DNA of 64,000 bases, taken from Cetobacterium sp. 8H. Lineage in GTDB: Bacteria; Fusobacteriota; Fusobacteriia; Fusobacteriales; Fusobacteriaceae. A program made the position numbers and the translations under genes. Numbering within the stretch: position 1 is the stretch's first letter; the number at the start of each line of letters is the position of its first letter. The notes under the pieces were generated by a model, which was given only the letters and a program-made list of their open reading frames with translations, had not been told where the DNA came from and did no database searches. Location: positions 310,001-374,000 of the forward strand of contig NZ_JACHTG010000003.1 of the NCBI RefSeq assembly GCF_014250675.1, in the 5' to 3' direction. Positions 45,120 to 55,541 of this stretch are shown piece after piece.

Positions 45120-45875
45120 TTAGAAATAGATACATATGTTTCTATTATTAATTTCTTTAACTTCAATAGGCATTTCATAAAGTTTTTCTAGTTTCTCTTG
45201 AATAACTATATTCTTTGTTTTATCCATATGTTTTAATTTCCCATTTTTCATGGCTAAAATATAATCTGAGTAAACAGATGTAAAGTTTATATCATGCATT
45301 ACAATAACTATTGTTTTGTTTAAATCTTTAACTAGTTTACGAAGAATCTTCATCATTTGAACAGCACTTTTCATATCCAAATTATTTAACGGCTCGTCTA
45401 GTAAAATGTACTTTGTATTTTGAGCAATTGTCATAGCTATATAAGCTCGTTGTCTTTGTCCACCACTCAATTCATCTAAATATTTATCTCTAAATTCATT
45501 TAAATTCATATATTCAATCGCTTCTTCAATTTTCTCTTTATCCTCTTTGCCTAATTTACCACCACTATGAGGGAATCTTCCAAAAGATATTAACTCATAA
45601 ACTGTCAATCTAACATTTGTTGTATTTTCCTGTTTTAATGTGGCAATTGTTTTAGCTAGCTCTGTTTTATCCCAATTTTCAATATTTTTACCATCAATTT
45701 CAATCTCACCTGCATCGAGAAGAATAAATCGACTTATCATATTTAAAACGGTACTTTTTCCAGCACCATTAGGACCTATTATACAAGTTATTTTTCCTTC
45801 AGGTATTTCAGCACTCACATCATTTACCACATAATTCCCTCTATATTTTTTACTGACATTTTTTATCTTAATCAT
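45120..45875 (-). CDS. Siderophore ABC transporter ATP-binding protein (YclP/FatE-like)
   Basis: 251 residues. Walker A GPNGAGKST (about 35-43), Q-loop TLKQEN, signature LSGGQRQRAYIAM, Walker B KYILLDEPLNNLD, H-loop VMHD. Short FecE-type ATPase for iron-siderophore import. Start overlaps the permease stop by 4 bases. Confidence 0.93.
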   Translation of the reverse strand: MIKIKNVSKKYRGNYVVNDVSAEIPEGKITCIIGPNGAGKSTVLNMISRFILLDAGEIEIDGKNIENWDKTELAKTIATLKQENTTNVRLTVYELISFGRFPHSGGKLGKEDKEKIEEAIEYMNLNEFRDKYLDELSGGQRQRAYIAMTIAQNTKYILLDEPLNNLDMKSAVQMMKILRKLVKDLNKTIVIVMHDINFTSVYSDYILAMKNGKLKHMDKTKNIVIQEKLEKLYEMPIEVKEINNRNICIYF

Positions 45876-46840
45876 CTAACTTTTCTCTCCTTTAATAAAA
45901 TATTTAATAAGTATATTCCACCTACAAAGTTAATAATAGTTCCAACAGGAAAACTATTATTGAATATTCTTTCTACAATTAATTGTCCTAATATTAAAAA
46001 AATTATACTTAATAAAGTTGATGAGAGTAATAGGTTTCTATGTTTATATGTTTTTAAAATTTCTTTTGAAATATTTACTGTTAATAAACCTAAAAACATT
46101 ACAGGTCCTACTAGAGCTGTAGAAATAGAAACTAATATACCTACGATAGTTAATTTTTTTCTTAAAAGTTTTTTATAATCCAAACCTAAATTTATAGACT
46201 GGCTATAACCTAAACTCATAACATCTAATTTTGCAATATCGTTTTTTAGCCAAAGTAATGATAGTCCTAAAACTCCGTATGCTATTCCTAATAGGTATAC
46301 ATTTACCTTATTGTAACTTGCAAATAGTGAGCTTTGAAGAATTAAAAACTCATCTGGATCCATAATCATTTGAATTCCATTTGACAAACTATCTAAAAAT
46401 GTCCCAACAATCATTCCTATTAAAATCATGTATAAAACTTTTCCTTTACTTTTATTTGTAAAAAAGCTTTGTAAAAGAACACTGACTAAAATCATAAAAA
46501 ATGTTGTAATTATAAACTTAGGAACACTTTCTACTAACATTGGTAACTTTCTTTTAAACGTAAATATTAACATTGTTTGTAGAAATACATACATAGAATC
46601 TAATCCCATAACACTTGGAGTAAGTATTCTACTATCTGTTACAGTTTGGAATATCAATGTTGAAACAGCGATACATGTTCCACTTAATATCATTGATAAT
46701 AATTTTATTCCTCTTGTTGAGATTAAATACTGTGCATTATTCTTATTTATCCCTATAAATAGAAATATGCTTATAGCAATAAGTAAAACTACTAAGAATA
46801 AAAGTAATTTATTTTCTATTTTTTTTTCTTTATGACTCAA
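45872..46840 (-). CDS. Siderophore ABC permease (FecCD family, YclO/FatC-like)
   Basis: 322 residues, about 9 hydrophobic spans. FecCD pattern: RGIKLLSMILSGTCIAVSTLIFQTVTDSRILTPSVMGLDSMYVF, SLGYSQSINLGLDYKKL, VGPVMFLGLLTVNISKEIL and VGTIINFVGGIYLLNILLK. Overlaps the upstream permease stop by 11 bases. Confidence 0.9.
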   Translation of the reverse strand: MSHKEKKIENKLLLFLVVLLIAISIFLFIGINKNNAQYLISTRGIKLLSMILSGTCIAVSTLIFQTVTDSRILTPSVMGLDSMYVFLQTMLIFTFKRKLPMLVESVPKFIITTFFMILVSVLLQSFFTNKSKGKVLYMILIGMIVGTFLDSLSNGIQMIMDPDEFLILQSSLFASYNKVNVYLLGIAYGVLGLSLLWLKNDIAKLDVMSLGYSQSINLGLDYKKLLRKKLTIVGILVSISTALVGPVMFLGLLTVNISKEILKTYKHRNLLLSSTLLSIIFLILGQLIVERIFNNSFPVGTIINFVGGIYLLNILLKERKVR

Positions 46841-47783
46841 AATTTAACCTCCTAAATATCATTCCTAAAAATACACCACTTCCTAAAATGCCTGTTATAA
46901 GTCCAATTGGGATTTCATGAGGGTATATAATCCATCTACCTAAAATGTCACAACCTAGTAAAAATAGACTTCCTAAAGCTCCAGTTATATAAATACTTTT
47001 AGATAGGTTATCTCCAAGATACATCGAAACAATATTTGGAATAATTAATCCTAAGAATGGAATTCCACCTATAGTTATCATGACTAAAGATGAAATTATA
47101 CATACTAAAATAAGACCTAAGTTAACAACCATTTTATAATTTAAACCTAAATTTACTGCAAACTCTTCTCCCATTCCTGAAATAGTAAAATGTTTAGAGT
47201 ACATAAAAGCTATCACTACCAATGGAATTGTAAGATAAAGAAGCTCGTAATTTCCCTTTAAAACTCCTGAAAAATCACCAAAAAGCCAACTGTTTATACT
47301 TTGGATTAAATCACCTTTATAAGCAAAGAACATTGTTAATGAACTTAAAATTCCACTGATCATAATTCCAATTAAGGGAACTAAAGCATTATCTTTTACA
47401 TTTATTTTTCTGATTATATTTAAAAATAGCAATGTCCCTGCAATAGCAAAGATAGTAGCTATTAGCATTTTAAAAATAATAGATTCTCTAGGAAAAAATA
47501 ATAGAGCTACAAGTATTCCTAATTTAGATGAATCTGCTGTCCCGGCAGTAGTTGGAGATACAAATTTATTCATTGTCAATTGTTGCATAATAAGTCCGCA
47601 TATACTCATACCAAATCCTGCAGTTATGATACTTATAGTTCTTGGAATTCTACTTAGCATTAATATATTGTTGCTATTAGTCCCGTATTGGAATATTTCT
47701 GTTAATTCTATAGATGCAACACCATAAAATACAGATATTATTGATAAAATTATGATTAATATTGATATAATAGCACTGTTCAT
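46830..47783 (-). CDS. Siderophore ABC permease (FecCD family, YclN/FatD-like)
   Basis: 317 residues, about 9 spans. RIPRTISIITAGFGMSICGLIMQQLTMNKFVSPTTAGTADSSKLG is the classic FecCD opening; later GGIPFLGLIIPNIVSMYLGDN and EIPIGLITGILGSGVFLGMIF. First gene of the operon; promoter and operators at 47801-47868. Confidence 0.92.
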   Translation of the reverse strand: MNSAIISILIIILSIISVFYGVASIELTEIFQYGTNSNNILMLSRIPRTISIITAGFGMSICGLIMQQLTMNKFVSPTTAGTADSSKLGILVALLFFPRESIIFKMLIATIFAIAGTLLFLNIIRKINVKDNALVPLIGIMISGILSSLTMFFAYKGDLIQSINSWLFGDFSGVLKGNYELLYLTIPLVVIAFMYSKHFTISGMGEEFAVNLGLNYKMVVNLGLILVCIISSLVMITIGGIPFLGLIIPNIVSMYLGDNLSKSIYITGALGSLFLLGCDILGRWIIYPHEIPIGLITGILGSGVFLGMIFRRLNFES

Positions 47784-47800
47784 TAGTTCTCCTTTAAAAT

Positions 47801-47868
47801 ATTTTGTCTAACAAAATAAATTATATCAAAATTTTTGATATTGTCAACAATAAAGTTGCAATTGCAAC
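47801..47868 (-). promoter_or_regulatory. Promoter of the siderophore ABC operon with three palindromes
   Basis: On the minus strand: TTGACA (47842-47847), 16-base gap, TATAAT (47820-47825), both perfect. A 9-1-9 palindrome ATATCAAAA-T-TTTTGATAT (47823-47841) fills the gap; ATTTTGT-CTA-ACAAAAT (47801-47817) lies downstream; the perfect 14-bp GTTGCAATTGCAAC (47855-47868) lies just upstream of -35 and recurs before two other transcripts. At least two regulators are implied. Confidence 0.85.
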
Positions 47869-47880
47869 AACGCAACATAA

Positions 47881-47911
47881 AAAAGAGATTAGAATTTTCT
47901 AATCCCTTTTT
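47881..47911 (-). terminator. Terminator of the TonB receptor gene
   Basis: GATTAGA / TCTAATC stem (47887-47904) next to the receptor stop; T-run on the minus strand comes from the A-run at 47878-47884. Confidence 0.8.
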
Positions 47912-47915
47912 CTTA

Positions 47916-49871
47916 TTAAAATGTAACTTTAGCTCCTACGAAGAAGTTTCTTCCTGGTGCTGGTCTTGCGACATCTTTTTTCTCTACGAAGTTGTAGTGC
48001 TCATCAAATACGTTGTTTATTCCAGCTTTTAATGTGAAATCCTGTGTTACTTTATATCTTAAAGCTAGATCAACAGTGTTGTAAGATTTATTTTTTATTC
48101 CTTGTGCTATTTTATCTCCAACATATAAATATGTAACTGTTCCGTCAAATTTAGGAGTAAACTTATAGTTAGCACCTAAATTCAATTTAACTCTTGGAAC
48201 TTCTTCTAATCTATCGCCATCATTACTTCCACCTTTTTCTACTGCATTTATATATGTTATTCCCTCTTTTAAAGTTAGATTTCCAAAATAGTTTTCTACA
48301 TTTAACTCTATTCCGTCTCTAGTTGTCTTGTTTATATTATGCCAAGTTATATTATCATTATCAATTTTTGTTTTAGATATCTCATTATCCTTATCAATTT
48401 TGAAGAAACTTAAAGATGCGAATGTATTGTCTAGAACATAGTCTTTTATTCCTATTTCAAAAGTATCTGAAGTTTCTGACTGAACATTATTAAATGTTAA
48501 TAATCCATCTTTTTTATCTGTTAATTGACCTGGAGTTGGTGACATATATCCTTTCTCATATCTAAAGAATACGTTTCCAGTATCTCTATATTTATAACTG
48601 ATAACTCCTTCATAAGCTCTATTGCTATCATCGATTTTACTTTTTGCTGTTCCTGAAGCATCTGTTGTTTTTAAATCATATTTTGCCCACTCATATCTAT
48701 AACCCAATGTAAATTCTAGTTTCTCTGTTAGGTTGTACCTATTTAAAATATAAGGAGACACTATATCTTTTTGATAATCATTCTTTGATTTTGCTCCCTT
48801 TGATGAAAGAGTATTACCTTTATAGTTACTTTCAATTGTATCTAATCCTACAATCAAACTACCTTTGTCATAGTTTATAACAGATTTTAAAAGCGCACCT
48901 GTTGTGTTTTCTTTTATATCCTCAGTTGAAACTGTAGGTTTTGTTTTAGAATAATCAGTTGAAACACCATCATTTTTTATTGTATTGTTATAAACTGTTG
49001 TAAAAAAGTTAAATGTTTTATTTGGTGTAAACTCATATTTTCCAACCAAACTTTCTCTAGTAAATTTTGTATCGCTATAAACATTTCCAGGAGCTTTTCT
49101 ATCATTTTCTAAAATAGTTTTTGCTGCTCCATCTGTATCGTTTTCATTTTCTACAAATCTTGATGCTTCTAATTTAAACTTATGAACATCAGAGAGTTTG
49201 TAAACTAGATTACCATCAATAAAATCATTAGATAGTTTATCTTCTTTTCTGTATCCGTGGTTATTTTGTCCAGAATAGTTAACTCCAAAACTTAACTTAT
49301 CGTTTATATTATAGTTTCCTCCAGCAGCTAATCTTTTGCTGTTGTATGAAGAATAATCAGTCTCTACAAATCCACCGTTTTTAGTATTATCCTTTGTAAT
49401 TATATTTACAACTCCGCCTGAAACTCCATTTCCATATAAAACTGCTCCACCACCAGGGGCAATCTCTATTCTTTCAATATTACTTACTGGAATCGAGTTG
49501 ATAGATAACGACTTATTAAAGGCATTTAACGGATTGATTGCAACTCCATTTAGTAAAACTTTTACGTTAGATAATGCTGCGTCCCCACTTCCTCTCATAT
49601 CAATAACAGGTCCATTTTTAGAGTAAACAATATTTACGTTAGGATTATCTTTTAATATGTCCTCAACATTTTTATAGTTCTTTTCTTCAATTTGGTCCTT
49701 TGAAATTAATGCTACGTTTGTAGCCTCGTCTAGTAGTGTCATCTCTGTTCCAGTTGTTGATATAATCGATTCTCCTAGGTGTACTCCCTCTGAGAAAAAT
49801 TCCTCTTCTTGAACATTAGCAGCCATTGCTGATGCACAAATTAAAAATGATAAAATAGTAATTTTTTTCAT
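47916..49871 (-). CDS. TonB-dependent siderophore receptor
   Basis: 651 residues. Signal peptide MKKITILSFLICASAMAA. Plug domain about 45-165 (VALISKDQIEEKNYKNVEDILKDNPNVNI; VIDMRGSGDAALSNVKVLLNGVAINPL; IERIEIAPGGGAVLYGNGVSGGVVNIITKD), then a beta-barrel ending in ...GRNFFVGAKVTF with the terminal Phe. Imports a ferric siderophore through the outer membrane for the ABC system next door. Regulated from its own operator at 49888-49901. Confidence 0.93.
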   Translation of the reverse strand: MKKITILSFLICASAMAANVQEEEFFSEGVHLGESIISTTGTEMTLLDEATNVALISKDQIEEKNYKNVEDILKDNPNVNIVYSKNGPVIDMRGSGDAALSNVKVLLNGVAINPLNAFNKSLSINSIPVSNIERIEIAPGGGAVLYGNGVSGGVVNIITKDNTKNGGFVETDYSSYNSKRLAAGGNYNINDKLSFGVNYSGQNNHGYRKEDKLSNDFIDGNLVYKLSDVHKFKLEASRFVENENDTDGAAKTILENDRKAPGNVYSDTKFTRESLVGKYEFTPNKTFNFFTTVYNNTIKNDGVSTDYSKTKPTVSTEDIKENTTGALLKSVINYDKGSLIVGLDTIESNYKGNTLSSKGAKSKNDYQKDIVSPYILNRYNLTEKLEFTLGYRYEWAKYDLKTTDASGTAKSKIDDSNRAYEGVISYKYRDTGNVFFRYEKGYMSPTPGQLTDKKDGLLTFNNVQSETSDTFEIGIKDYVLDNTFASLSFFKIDKDNEISKTKIDNDNITWHNINKTTRDGIELNVENYFGNLTLKEGITYINAVEKGGSNDGDRLEEVPRVKLNLGANYKFTPKFDGTVTYLYVGDKIAQGIKNKSYNTVDLALRYKVTQDFTLKAGINNVFDEHYNFVEKKDVARPAPGRNFFVGAKVTF

Positions 49872-51585: not shown

Positions 51586-51891
51586 TTAAGATATCTTTTC
51601 TATAAAAATTTTAAGTTCATCTCGTATTTGAGAGATAGAAAAAAATCTTATCTTTTTTAAAATTTCCATTCCATCATAATAGACAATAAATATAGGTGTT
51701 ACAAAAACTAAAAATTCTCCTGCCACTTCAGGATTTTTTTTAGTGTCTATTGGAAAAAACTTTGTACCTTCAAATTCTTTTGAAAACTCCTCTAACCTAG
51801 GGAGCATACTACCATCAACTCAAGTACTTTTTTCGCTGTTATAAATGTAGATAAAAGAAAATTTTTCTGATTTTATTTTTTTATAATCCAT
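51586..51891 (-). CDS. Thioredoxin-like selenoprotein (in-frame UGA at the redox position)
   Basis: 101 residues if TGA 51820-51822 is read as selenocysteine (residue 24). ATG 51889-51891 has AAGGAG 7 bases upstream; the frame is open on both sides of the one TGA. Upstream: MDYKKIKSEKFSFIYIYNSEKST; downstream: VDGSMLPRLEEFSKEFEGTKFFPIDTKK...FVTPIFIVYYDGMEI, a clear thioredoxin fold with the cis-Pro loop TPIFIV. The TGA falls where thioredoxins have the first Cys of CxxC; the second Cys is absent (U-V-D-G). A SECIS-like hairpin follows (51787-51804). A plain pseudogene is the alternative. Confidence 0.75.
51787..51804 (-). promoter_or_regulatory. Bacterial SECIS-like hairpin
   Basis: On the minus strand CTCC-CTA / TAG-A-GGAG forms 7 pairs with one bulged A and loop GGT. 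The loop begins 22 bases after the UGA and has G in its first two places; both fit the bacterial SECIS model (loop 16-37 bases downstream, G among the first two). Confidence 0.6.
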
Positions 51892-52001
51892 GAATTTACT
51901 CCTTTTGTTTTTTATAATATTCTACCATAAAAAAAATATAAAAAAACTACACTTTTTTAATATAGAAATTTCTTGAAAAATAAAGGAAATTATGTGATAA
52001 T

Positions 52002-52062: not shown

Positions 52063-52266
52063 ATGATAAAAGTTTATGGAAAAGAAAATTGTAGTAAATG
52101 CGATAATTTAAAGAGAATTTTAGAAGAAAAAGGAATTGAATTTGAATATATACAGGATTTAAAAACGTTGATGATGGTCGCTAGTAAAGCAAGAATTATG
52201 AGCGCTCCAGTTGTTGAGTATAACGGAAAGGTGTATTCTATGGAAGCTTTCTTAGAGGTTCTTTAA
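52063..52266 (+). CDS. Glutaredoxin-like protein (NrdH-like)
   Basis: 67 residues, thioredoxin fold with redox CSKC (residues 9-12) and cis-Pro MSAPVVEYNGKVYS. Ends 1 base before nrdA, so it is very probably the electron donor for this reductase. AGGAGG ribosome site. Confidence 0.85.
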   Translation: MIKVYGKENCSKCDNLKRILEEKGIEFEYIQDLKTLMMVASKARIMSAPVVEYNGKVYSMEAFLEVL

Positions 52267-52267
52267 T

Positions 52268-54514
52268 ATGAGGCAAGTTATAAATAGAGAAGGAATAAGA
52301 GAGAAGTTAGATATTACAAAAATTAGGGAAAAACTTTTAAGAGCTTGTAAGGACTTAGAAGTAAATATGGTTGAATTAGAAAGCCATATAGATTCGATAT
52401 ATCAAGTGGATATAACGACAAAAAAAATCCAAGAATCACTTATAAACCAAGCTGTAAGTATGACTAGTTTTGAAGAAAGTGATTGGACATATGTTGCGGG
52501 AAGATTACTTATGATGGAAACTGAAAGAGAAGTTTATCATAAGAGAGGGTTTTCATATGGGCAATTTGGTAGAACTATAAAAAAATTAGTAGAGCTAGGA
52601 GTTTATGATAGAAGACTTTTGGAGTATTCAGATAAAGAGTTGGAAGAGTTAGAAAAAACAATAGATATATCAAGAGATATGCTTTATGACTATGCAGGGT
52701 CTAATATGCTTGTAAATAGATATCTATTGAAATATGATGGGATTATATATGAACTTCCACAAGAGGTATTTATGTGTATCTCAATGCTTTTAGCTATAAA
52801 TGAAGAAAATAGAGTAGAGATAGCAAAAACATTTTATGATGCACTCTCTTTAAAAAAGATTTCTTTAGCTACTCCGATATTAGCAAATCTAAGAGTTCCT
52901 AGGGGGAATCTATCATCTTGTTTTATAACAGCTATGGACGATAATATAGAATCAATTTTTTATAATGTTGATACAATAGCAAAAATAAGTAAAAATGGTG
53001 GTGGAGTAGGGCTTAATATATCTAGAATTAGGGGTAAAAATTCAACAGTGAATGGATATTTTAATGCTAGTGGTGGAGTTGTTCCATGGGTTAAAATAGT
53101 TAATGACACAGCTGTAGCAGTTAATCAGCAAGGAAGAAGAGCAGGAGCTGTGACAGTTGCACTAGATTCTTGGCATATTGATATAGAAAACTTTTTAGAA
53201 CTTCAAACTGAAAATGGGGATCAAAGAGGAAAAGCTTACGATATATATCCGCAAGTGGTTTTATCTGATCTGTTTATGAGAAGAGTTGAAGCAGATTTAC
53301 CATGGAGTCTATTTGATCCGTATGAGGTTAGAAAAAACTATAATGTAGAGCTATGTGAACTTTATGGAGAACAATTTGAAAAAATATATTTAGATTTAGA
53401 GAATAACACTAATATAAAACTTAAAAAAACAATAAAAGCTAGAGAGTTATTCAAAGAGATAATGAAAGTGCAGATTGAAACAGGAATGCCATATATCTTT
53501 TTTAAGGATAGAGCAAATGAAGGAAATCATAATTCACATAAAGGAATGATAGGAAATGGGAATTTATGTATGGAGAGTTTTTCAAACTTTTCTCCTAGTG
53601 TAAATTTTAATGAGGAATCAGTTGGAAACAAAGGTATCAGAGAGGTAGAATTGGGTGAAGTTCACACTTGTAATTTAGTTTCATTAAATTTAGCAGAGTT
53701 AGAACAAGATGAATTTGAAGATATTATTTATACAGCGGTTAGAATTTTAGATAATACAATTGATCTAACAGAAACACCTATAAAAGAATCTGATAAACAC
53801 AATAAGTTGTATAGAACTATTGGTGTAGGAGCAATGGGATTAGCCGATTATCTTGCAAAGGAATTTATGATATATGATGAATCTATTGAAGAGATTGATA
53901 AATTATTTGAAGAGATTTCGATCTACACAATAAAAGCTTCAGCTCTATTAGCTAAAGAAAGAGGAAGATATTTGGCTTTTGAAGGATCTAAATGGGATAA
54001 GGGGTTATTTTTTAATAAAGATCAAAAATGGTATGAAAAAAATTCTAGTTTTTCAGAAAAGTGGACAGAAGTCTTTAAACTTGTTAAGGAGTATGGACTA
54101 CGTAATGGAGAGTTAACAGCAATCGCACCAAATACTTCAACATCATTATTGATGGGGTCAACAGCATCTGTAAATCCTACATTTTCTAGATTCTATATAG
54201 AAAAAAATCAAAAAGGAGCAGTTCCAAGAGTGGTAAAACACCTTAAGGATAGAGCGTGGTTTTATCCTGAATTTAAAAATGTTGATTCTAAAACATATGT
54301 AAAAATAATGAGTAGAATAGGAAAATGGATAACTCAAGGTGTTTCAATGGAGTTAATATTTGATTTAAATAAGGATATTAAAGCTAAAGATATCTATGAA
54401 ACATTTTTAACAGCTTGGAAAGAGGGTTGTAAATCAGTTTATTATATAAGAACAATTCAAAGAAATACAAATATAATAAATGAAAAAGAGGAGTGTGAAA
54501 GTTGTAGTGGATAG
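52268..54514 (+). CDS. nrdA: Class Ia ribonucleotide reductase, alpha subunit
   Basis: 748 residues. ATP-cone at 1-90 (REGIREKLDITKIREKLLRACKD). Catalytic Cys in GNLSSCFI, radical-site motif NLCMES, partner Cys in HTCNLVSLNLAE, Tyr pair SVYYIRT, and C-terminal shuttle CESCSG. Converts ribonucleoside diphosphates to deoxy forms with the radical from NrdB. An oxygen-dependent enzyme in a hydrogenase-bearing bacterium suggests tolerance of microoxic conditions. Confidence 0.95.
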   Translation: MRQVINREGIREKLDITKIREKLLRACKDLEVNMVELESHIDSIYQVDITTKKIQESLINQAVSMTSFEESDWTYVAGRLLMMETEREVYHKRGFSYGQFGRTIKKLVELGVYDRRLLEYSDKELEELEKTIDISRDMLYDYAGSNMLVNRYLLKYDGIIYELPQEVFMCISMLLAINEENRVEIAKTFYDALSLKKISLATPILANLRVPRGNLSSCFITAMDDNIESIFYNVDTIAKISKNGGGVGLNISRIRGKNSTVNGYFNASGGVVPWVKIVNDTAVAVNQQGRRAGAVTVALDSWHIDIENFLELQTENGDQRGKAYDIYPQVVLSDLFMRRVEADLPWSLFDPYEVRKNYNVELCELYGEQFEKIYLDLENNTNIKLKKTIKARELFKEIMKVQIETGMPYIFFKDRANEGNHNSHKGMIGNGNLCMESFSNFSPSVNFNEESVGNKGIREVELGEVHTCNLVSLNLAELEQDEFEDIIYTAVRILDNTIDLTETPIKESDKHNKLYRTIGVGAMGLADYLAKEFMIYDESIEEIDKLFEEISIYTIKASALLAKERGRYLAFEGSKWDKGLFFNKDQKWYEKNSSFSEKWTEVFKLVKEYGLRNGELTAIAPNTSTSLLMGSTASVNPTFSRFYIEKNQKGAVPRVVKHLKDRAWFYPEFKNVDSKTYVKIMSRIGKWITQGVSMELIFDLNKDIKAKDIYETFLTAWKEGCKSVYYIRTIQRNTNIINEKEECESCSG

Positions 54515-55541
54515 AAAAAAATTATTTAACCCAAGTGGGAGTGACTCTTTAAGTGATAGAAGAATTATAAAAGGAGATAGTACAAACATATTTAATTTGA
54601 ATAATGTTAGATACCAATGGGCAAATTTACTATATAGAAATATGATGGGGAATTTCTGGATTCCTGAAAAAATAGATTTAACTCAAGATAAAAATGATTA
54701 TGAAAATTTGACTGACTATGAAAAAGAAGCATATGATGGGATTTTGTCATTTTTAATATTTTTAGATAGTATCCAGACAAACAACATTCCAAATATATCA
54801 AATTATATAACTGCTCCTGAAGTAAGCTTGATATTATCTATCCAAACATTCCAAGAAGCTGTTCATTCACAATCATATCAGTATATAATTGAATCGATTT
54901 TGCCAAAGGAAAAAAGAAATATGATATATGATAAATGGAGGGAAGATAAAATTCTTTTCGAAAGAAATAGTTATATTGCAGACATATATCAAGATTTTTT
55001 AAATCAGCCAAATGATGAAAATTTTTCAAAAGCACTAATAGCAGACTATCTATTAGAAGCTGTTTATTTCTATAATGGGTTTAACTTTTTCTATCTTTTA
55101 GCTAGTAGAAATCGAATGATGGGGACTTCAGATATTATTAAACTTATAAATAGAGATGAGTTATCTCATGTGGTTATATTTCAGCAAATGATCAAAGAGA
55201 TTAGAGATGAAAATCCAGGATTCTTTAAAGATGAGATATTTTATGAGATGTTTGAAAAAGCGGTAGAACAAGAAATTGTTTGGACTAATCACATAATTGG
55301 AAATCAGATTTTAGGAATAACTGAAGAAACAACAGAAGCATACACAAAATGGCTAGCTAATGAAAGATTGAAATCTATAGGGTTAAAGCCGTTGTATGAT
55401 GGGTTTGTAAAGAATCCATACAAGCATCTTGAAAAGTTTGCAGATACAGAAGGAGAGGGGAATGTGAAAGCTAATTTTTTTGAGGGAACAGTAACAAGTT
55501 ACAATATGAGTTCTTCAATAGAAGGATGGGAAGAGTTTTAA
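54507..55541 (+). CDS. nrdB: Class Ia ribonucleotide reductase, beta subunit
   Basis: 344 residues from GTG 54507 (VDRKKLFNPSG...), which fits the family start; ATG 54480 in frame lacks a ribosome site and would overlap nrdA by 35 bases. Iron ligands and radical Tyr are present: FLDSIQTNN (Asp), QEAVHSQSYQYI (Glu, His, Tyr), LLEAVYFY (Glu), RDELSHVVIF (Glu, His). The C-terminal SSIEGWEEF is the usual tail that binds alpha. Confidence 0.93.
   Translation: MDRKKLFNPSGSDSLSDRRIIKGDSTNIFNLNNVRYQWANLLYRNMMGNFWIPEKIDLTQDKNDYENLTDYEKEAYDGILSFLIFLDSIQTNNIPNISNYITAPEVSLILSIQTFQEAVHSQSYQYIIESILPKEKRNMIYDKWREDKILFERNSYIADIYQDFLNQPNDENFSKALIADYLLEAVYFYNGFNFFYLLASRNRMMGTSDIIKLINRDELSHVVIFQQMIKEIRDENPGFFKDEIFYEMFEKAVEQEIVWTNHIIGNQILGITEETTEAYTKWLANERLKSIGLKPLYDGFVKNPYKHLEKFADTEGEGNVKANFFEGTVTSYNMSSSIEGWEEF

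Follow-up and report, generated by a model that had tools for sequence, protein, structure and literature searches.

Does the in-frame TGA in a short gene of Cetobacterium sp. 8H end the reading frame or call for selenocysteine (Sec, U) and, if the latter, what kind of chemistry might the product perform? The gene lies in a stretch of 64,000 nucleotides from contig NZ_JACHTG010000003.1, here called the window, and a first-pass annotation of that stretch had described it as encoding a thioredoxin-like selenoprotein with a U-V-D-G active site. A conserved TGA, a hairpin, Sec machinery in the genome and a thioredoxin-fold model bear out this description, and we are almost certain that the window gene encodes a selenoprotein with a thioredoxin fold.

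Table 1. Features of the gene; positions are those of the window.
Feature	Position	Strand	Details
Selenoprotein gene, thioredoxin-fold product	51586..51891	−	ATG at 51891, TAA end at 51586; 101 codons + TAA, TGA read as U; homologues with TGA in 7 other genomes; AlphaFold2 model
In-frame TGA, Sec codon 24	51820..51822	−	Invariant in 8 genomes; selA, selB, selD and tRNA-Sec in genome
Shine-Dalgarno-like AAGGAG	51899..51904	−	7 nt 5' of ATG; based on sequence
Shortened ORF, residues 29-101	51586..51807	−	As listed by standard ORF caller; 73 aa
Predicted SECIS hairpin, GCUCCCUA-GGU-UAG-A-GGAGU	51786..51805	−	Loop (GGU) at 51795-51797 and bulged A at 51791; prediction repeated in each of the 8 copies

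The gene lies on the minus strand, a point left unstated in the first-pass annotation, and with TGA read as U its product is MDYKKIKSEKFSFIYIYNSEKSTUVDGSMLPRLEEFSKEFEGTKFFPIDTKKNPEVAGEFLVFVTPIFIVYYDGMEILKKIRFFSISQIRDELKIFIEKIS, which contains no Cys. As claimed earlier, the frame is intact around the TGA and has a good start (table 1), and automatic calling recovers residues 29-101 only. Equivalent fragments of 72-77 aa are the ORFs listed in other genomes with the TGA form. What the gene callers list is the first argument for taking the TGA as a true stop, which would leave either a pseudogene or a 73-residue protein starting at residue 29. Against this, a comparison across the Cetobacterium copies found no Shine-Dalgarno sequence before the internal ATG29, purine-rich Shine-Dalgarno sequences precede the upstream ATG in six other Cetobacterium copies as well, and residues 1-28 include the first strand of the fold in the AlphaFold2 model.

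The TGA form occurs at the identical codon in eight of 61 genomes, seven of them Cetobacterium (the window genome included) and the eighth from a sister genus (G020), and the eight proteins are 49-72% identical. A profile search of 98 genomes across the phylum gave no additional TGA form of the UVDG protein, the distant CxxC match in G053 running to an ordinary stop; the known range of the Sec form is one genus and one sister genus. Scanning genome contigs with the alignment recovered two copies in Cetobacterium MAGs along with four CxxC relatives in Bacteroidales, while the single window protein recovered none. Viral contigs yielded no relatives, and plasmids yielded seven records, compared by name and identity only. 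In the 15 codons on either side of the TGA pN/pS is approximately 0.44, the downstream part being blurred by the overlapping hairpin, and upstream shifted frames give values of approximately 1.0-1.2; the upstream codon-position test is barely significant (P = 0.048). Retention of the TGA and upstream frame in eight genomes, together with selection on the upstream codons, counters both forms of the true-stop reading, which we rejected.

The first-pass annotation had also proposed a hairpin following bacterial SECIS rules, with a loop 22 bases past the UGA starting with GG, and this was confirmed. The window hairpin starts 14 nt 3' of the UGA, 22 nt separate the UGA from the loop GGU, and all eight copies have a hairpin downstream of the TGA with a loop of GGU or GGA, that is, the directly downstream position and G-rich, GGU-type apical loop of a SECIS element. 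Six copies share the form GCUCCCUA-GGU-UAG-A-GGAG[U/C] with its bulged A; the hairpins of G004 (GCUCUCUA-GGA-UAGAGAGU) and G020 (GCUUUCUA-GGU-UAGAAAGU) are bulge-free. Between G004 and G020 one pair changes from C-G to U-A through two silent substitutions (CTC to CTT and GAG to GAA). Stem pairing is retained through paired changes across the copies, of which few can be counted as independent covariation events because of a one-base register shift between the six-copy group and G004/G020. Among the six Cetobacterium copies the hairpin is the longest invariant run (20 nt), and third positions vary in none of its six codons, as against 57 of 92 outside it (P = 0.004, Fisher test). The folding energy of the window hairpin relative to shuffled sequences is unexceptional taken singly (z = −0.7), the second point in favor of a true stop, and Rfam returned no SECIS family match in the window or the Sec loci. 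Judged from the sequences compared, the case for this putative SECIS hairpin rests on its conservation and not on thermodynamics. With the covariation added to the evidence above, we regard a true stop as extremely improbable.

The Sec machinery that the first-pass annotation named as a check is present in the genome. SelA was identified with an E value of 2e-143, ORFs for SelB and SelD adjoin it (recognized from sequence and position), and tRNA-Sec scored 69.3 bits (gathering cut-off 47) and was also found by ARAGORN. SelA is present in all eight genomes with the TGA form. The SelD gene (L040 7830-8855, minus strand) itself has an in-frame TGA in the motif SIGGUASK, with the standard ORF call starting downstream at a GTG, and provides an internal sign of UGA recoding in the window genome.

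Among the few selenoprotein families examined, out of more than 110 known (PMC13188914), TGA was seen in the window genome only in SelD and the UVDG protein. The formate dehydrogenase match is TGA-less, GrdA and GrdB are absent, none of the AhpC-TSA, MsrA, Sulf_transp and PF00085 matches has a TGA, and neither Sec-MsrA nor Sec-Prx was found. Elsewhere, formate dehydrogenase occurs in the Cetobacterium genomes G005, G008 and G009 (TIGR01591 matches) as a form with one TGA, the Sec form, plus a TGA-less paralogue, and in G004 a single TGA lies in a fragment of an AhpC-TSA gene where a contig ends (G004:C203:12-179, minus strand), possibly a Sec-peroxiredoxin. Four Cetobacterium genomes (G003, G007, G010 and G011, of which G011 is 67% complete) encode SelA and gave no match to the UVDG gene or to any examined TGA-bearing family, suggesting that they likely have an additional client and that Cetobacterium probably holds a further selenoprotein beyond the families examined.

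The AlphaFold2 model of the window protein (pLDDT 82) has a thioredoxin fold, giving a Z of 12.6 and an rmsd of 1.6 over 88 aligned residues when aligned with VIA-align to the natural thioredoxin 6mos, and a Z of 11-13 with many thioredoxins; its weakest part is the active-site loop (residues 21-30, mean pLDDT 66). The nearest solved structures by sequence, PDB entries 4euy (the thioredoxin-like BCE_0499) and 6mos (thioredoxin 1 of Thermosipho africanus), are good fold matches, but identity is only about 20-30% and neither title mentions a selenoprotein. With Pfam PF00085 the window protein scores 19.0 bits, under the gathering cut-off of 23.5 (L005 scores 21.9), and its match starts at residue 28, beyond the motif, so that the match does not fix the site; Cys relatives exceed the cut-off with 28-42 bits. 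The CxxC or UxxC redox pair of thioredoxins is absent, the window motif being K-x-T-U-V-D-G.

Relatives without TGA, found in Fusobacteriaceae, Leptotrichiaceae-like families and four Bacteroidales genomes, have CxxC sites, mostly CSVC or CGLC. HMM-HMM comparison relates the Sec and Cys forms with a probability of 99.8. In the tree the Sec forms are a single clade (100/100) inside the CxxC forms, nearest to CxxC proteins of other Fusobacteriaceae (89/85). Alignment and tree thus show that the Sec protein arose within a thioredoxin-like family of Fusobacteriaceae with CxxC (CSVC) sites, and the simplest history is a single replacement of the CxxC site by the Sec site plus a two-residue insertion. 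The active-site loop of the Sec forms, K-x-[C/T/N/K]-U-V-D-G, is two residues longer than that of the CxxC relatives. The search for homologues with Cys or Sec at the TGA position thus gave both, Sec in eight genomes and CxxC in the relatives; no homologue was found with Cys in place of U within the K-x-x-U-V-D-G frame, the Cys homologues differing by two loop residues.

The first-pass annotation had put the TGA at the attacking Cys, and this placement is unsupported: in BLAST, MAFFT and hhalign alignments alike, U24 falls opposite the second Cys of the CxxC relatives, and Lys21, invariant in all eight Sec forms, opposite the first, although the two-residue insertion after U makes the pairing uncertain. 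From these alignments we lean slightly towards a K-x-x-U site with U at the second (resolving) Cys. If the selenoprotein reading is granted, it is a serious possibility, though short of probable, that U24 is instead the equivalent of the N-terminal Cys of CxxC and acts like a monothiol glutaredoxin or 1-Cys thioredoxin. Counting back from the conserved Pro31 (equivalent to E. coli Pro40) puts U one residue off the first Cys, and in the table of a review U heads the motif (UxxC) in most known Trx-like selenoproteins; the three alignments speak against this placement, and the low confidence of the loop limits any placement based on the model. The K-x-x-U reading has a parallel in the ‘cxxC’ sites described in a Trx-fold atlas, for example the TxxC of human peroxiredoxin 5 (PMC2757866). 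More specifically, we tentatively propose that Sec stands in place of the resolving Cys and the invariant Lys in place of the first, so that the window species would have a Cys-free enzyme in which a minimal thioredoxin scaffold carries a TxxU layout like that of Prx. As part of the same tentative proposal, this protein may be among the few reasons for keeping the Sec system, given the TGA-less formate dehydrogenase match and the lack of GrdA, GrdB, Sec-MsrA and Sec-Prx.

The first-pass annotation had further seen a U-only enzyme. This stands for the window protein, and G004 and G020 also lack a Cys before U, but in five of the eight Sec forms a Cys, the only one in the protein, directly precedes U, making the vicinal pair the commoner state. 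The residue before U is T in the window protein, N in G004 and K in G020. The five C-U forms could mean that the ancestral chemistry was a vicinal Cys23-Sec24 selenenylsulfide, like that of mammalian thioredoxin reductase at its GCUG tail, with the Cys lost in the window lineage. We consider this unlikely: the pair is missing from three forms, including the two most diverged, and the C-U state may therefore be derived. The missing Cys in these three forms also implies that there is no conserved partner thiol, making an outside reductant the simplest mechanism.

We predict that the ribosome, SelB and tRNA-Sec read UGA24 as Sec under the direction of the hairpin just downstream, a step for which conservation and covariation give good support. 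The selenolate of Sec, placed in the loop that leads into helix alpha2 and close to a conserved Thr-Pro (Pro66, presumably cis), would attack a disulfide, peroxide or other oxidized substrate. In the window form, the oxidized Sec (selenenic acid or mixed selenenylsulfide) would be reduced by an outside thiol, candidates being the ordinary TrxA encoded in the genome and a low-molecular-weight thiol, and in the C-U relatives the neighboring Cys could give a vicinal selenenylsulfide. That the protein is a monoselenol redox enzyme, with external thiols regenerating it, is in our judgment an evenly balanced proposal. Alternatively, Sec may bind a metal or selenium/metalloid and not act as a redox catalyst, a role suggested, according to a review (PMC13188914), for certain UXX-star and Sao selenoproteins. 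We think this improbable, as the close kin are CxxC thioredoxin-like proteins and no metal-resistance neighbors were recognized in the compared loci. Taken whole, a SECIS-directed, Sec-containing thioredoxin-fold protein derived from a CxxC ancestor, with a presumed monoselenol chemistry, is highly probable as the best explanation of the locus.

Comparison with known systems points to what is new here. The ‘thioredoxin family protein’ of Ilyobacter polytropus (CSVC; NC_014633 527526-527819, L011/G035) is 37% identical and resembles the window protein in length, fold and the GEFLVF-x-x-P and ARFF regions; the window protein differs in having KxxU for CxxC and an in-frame TGA, the Ilyobacter site being TGA-less and two residues shorter. 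Known Sec-thioredoxins (PF00085, UxxC; PMC13188914, PMC9312934) are likewise small Trx folds whose active-site loop carries a Sec encoded by UGA, but their UxxC includes a resolving Cys, whereas U-V-D-G lacks a Cys at +3 and the window form is entirely Cys-free. Sec-peroxiredoxin (TxxU) and other ‘cxxC’ thioredoxin-fold proteins such as human Prx5 (TxxC; PMC2757866) share, if the alignments are right, a reactive second motif position with the first Cys lost; unlike these, the window protein is a minimal 101-residue protein with a KxxU motif, without an AhpC-TSA match in Pfam or the Pxxx[T/S]xx[C/U] pattern. Sec-MsrA of Clostridium oremlandii (PMC4479559), a natural 1-Cys type selenoenzyme, sets a precedent for a Sec that lacks its customary partner Cys, albeit of a different family and substrate.

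None of the eight proteins matches an NCBIfam selenoprotein model, the weak general thioredoxin matches of the window protein reaching 22.9 bits against a cut-off of 140. A 2026 selenoprotein inventory, which gives thioredoxin as UxxC, was found to contain no UVDG or KxxU thioredoxin-fold family, and the literature searched has no mention of a UVDG-type selenoprotein in Fusobacteria or Cetobacterium. This looks like an undescribed selenoprotein subfamily of Cetobacterium and its sister genus. Recognizing it corrects a gene that standard calling reduces to its last 73 residues, and the C-U, T-U, N-U and K-U forms with their CxxC cousins provide a simple natural system for studying Sec without a resolving thiol.

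A conserved neighborhood of the window copy was sought and not found, neighbors differing between the window and other species. The window copy is flanked by nrdH and class I ribonucleotide reductase genes on one side and a BD-FAE hydrolase gene on the other. The former (52063-55541, plus strand) comprise an NrdH-like glutaredoxin (CSKC) followed by the large and small reductase chains, are divergent from the selenoprotein gene and do not adjoin it in the other species compared. Positions 45120-49871 (minus strand) encode a TonB-dependent receptor together with ABC transporter components, a group that probably serves the uptake of iron or siderophores. In five other Cetobacterium an SBP/GGDEF/EAL protein is encoded just downstream of the selenoprotein gene, and in G002 a transposon-type ORF, TnpB-like by eye (L073 6254-7369, minus strand), adjoins it, hinting at mobile surroundings.
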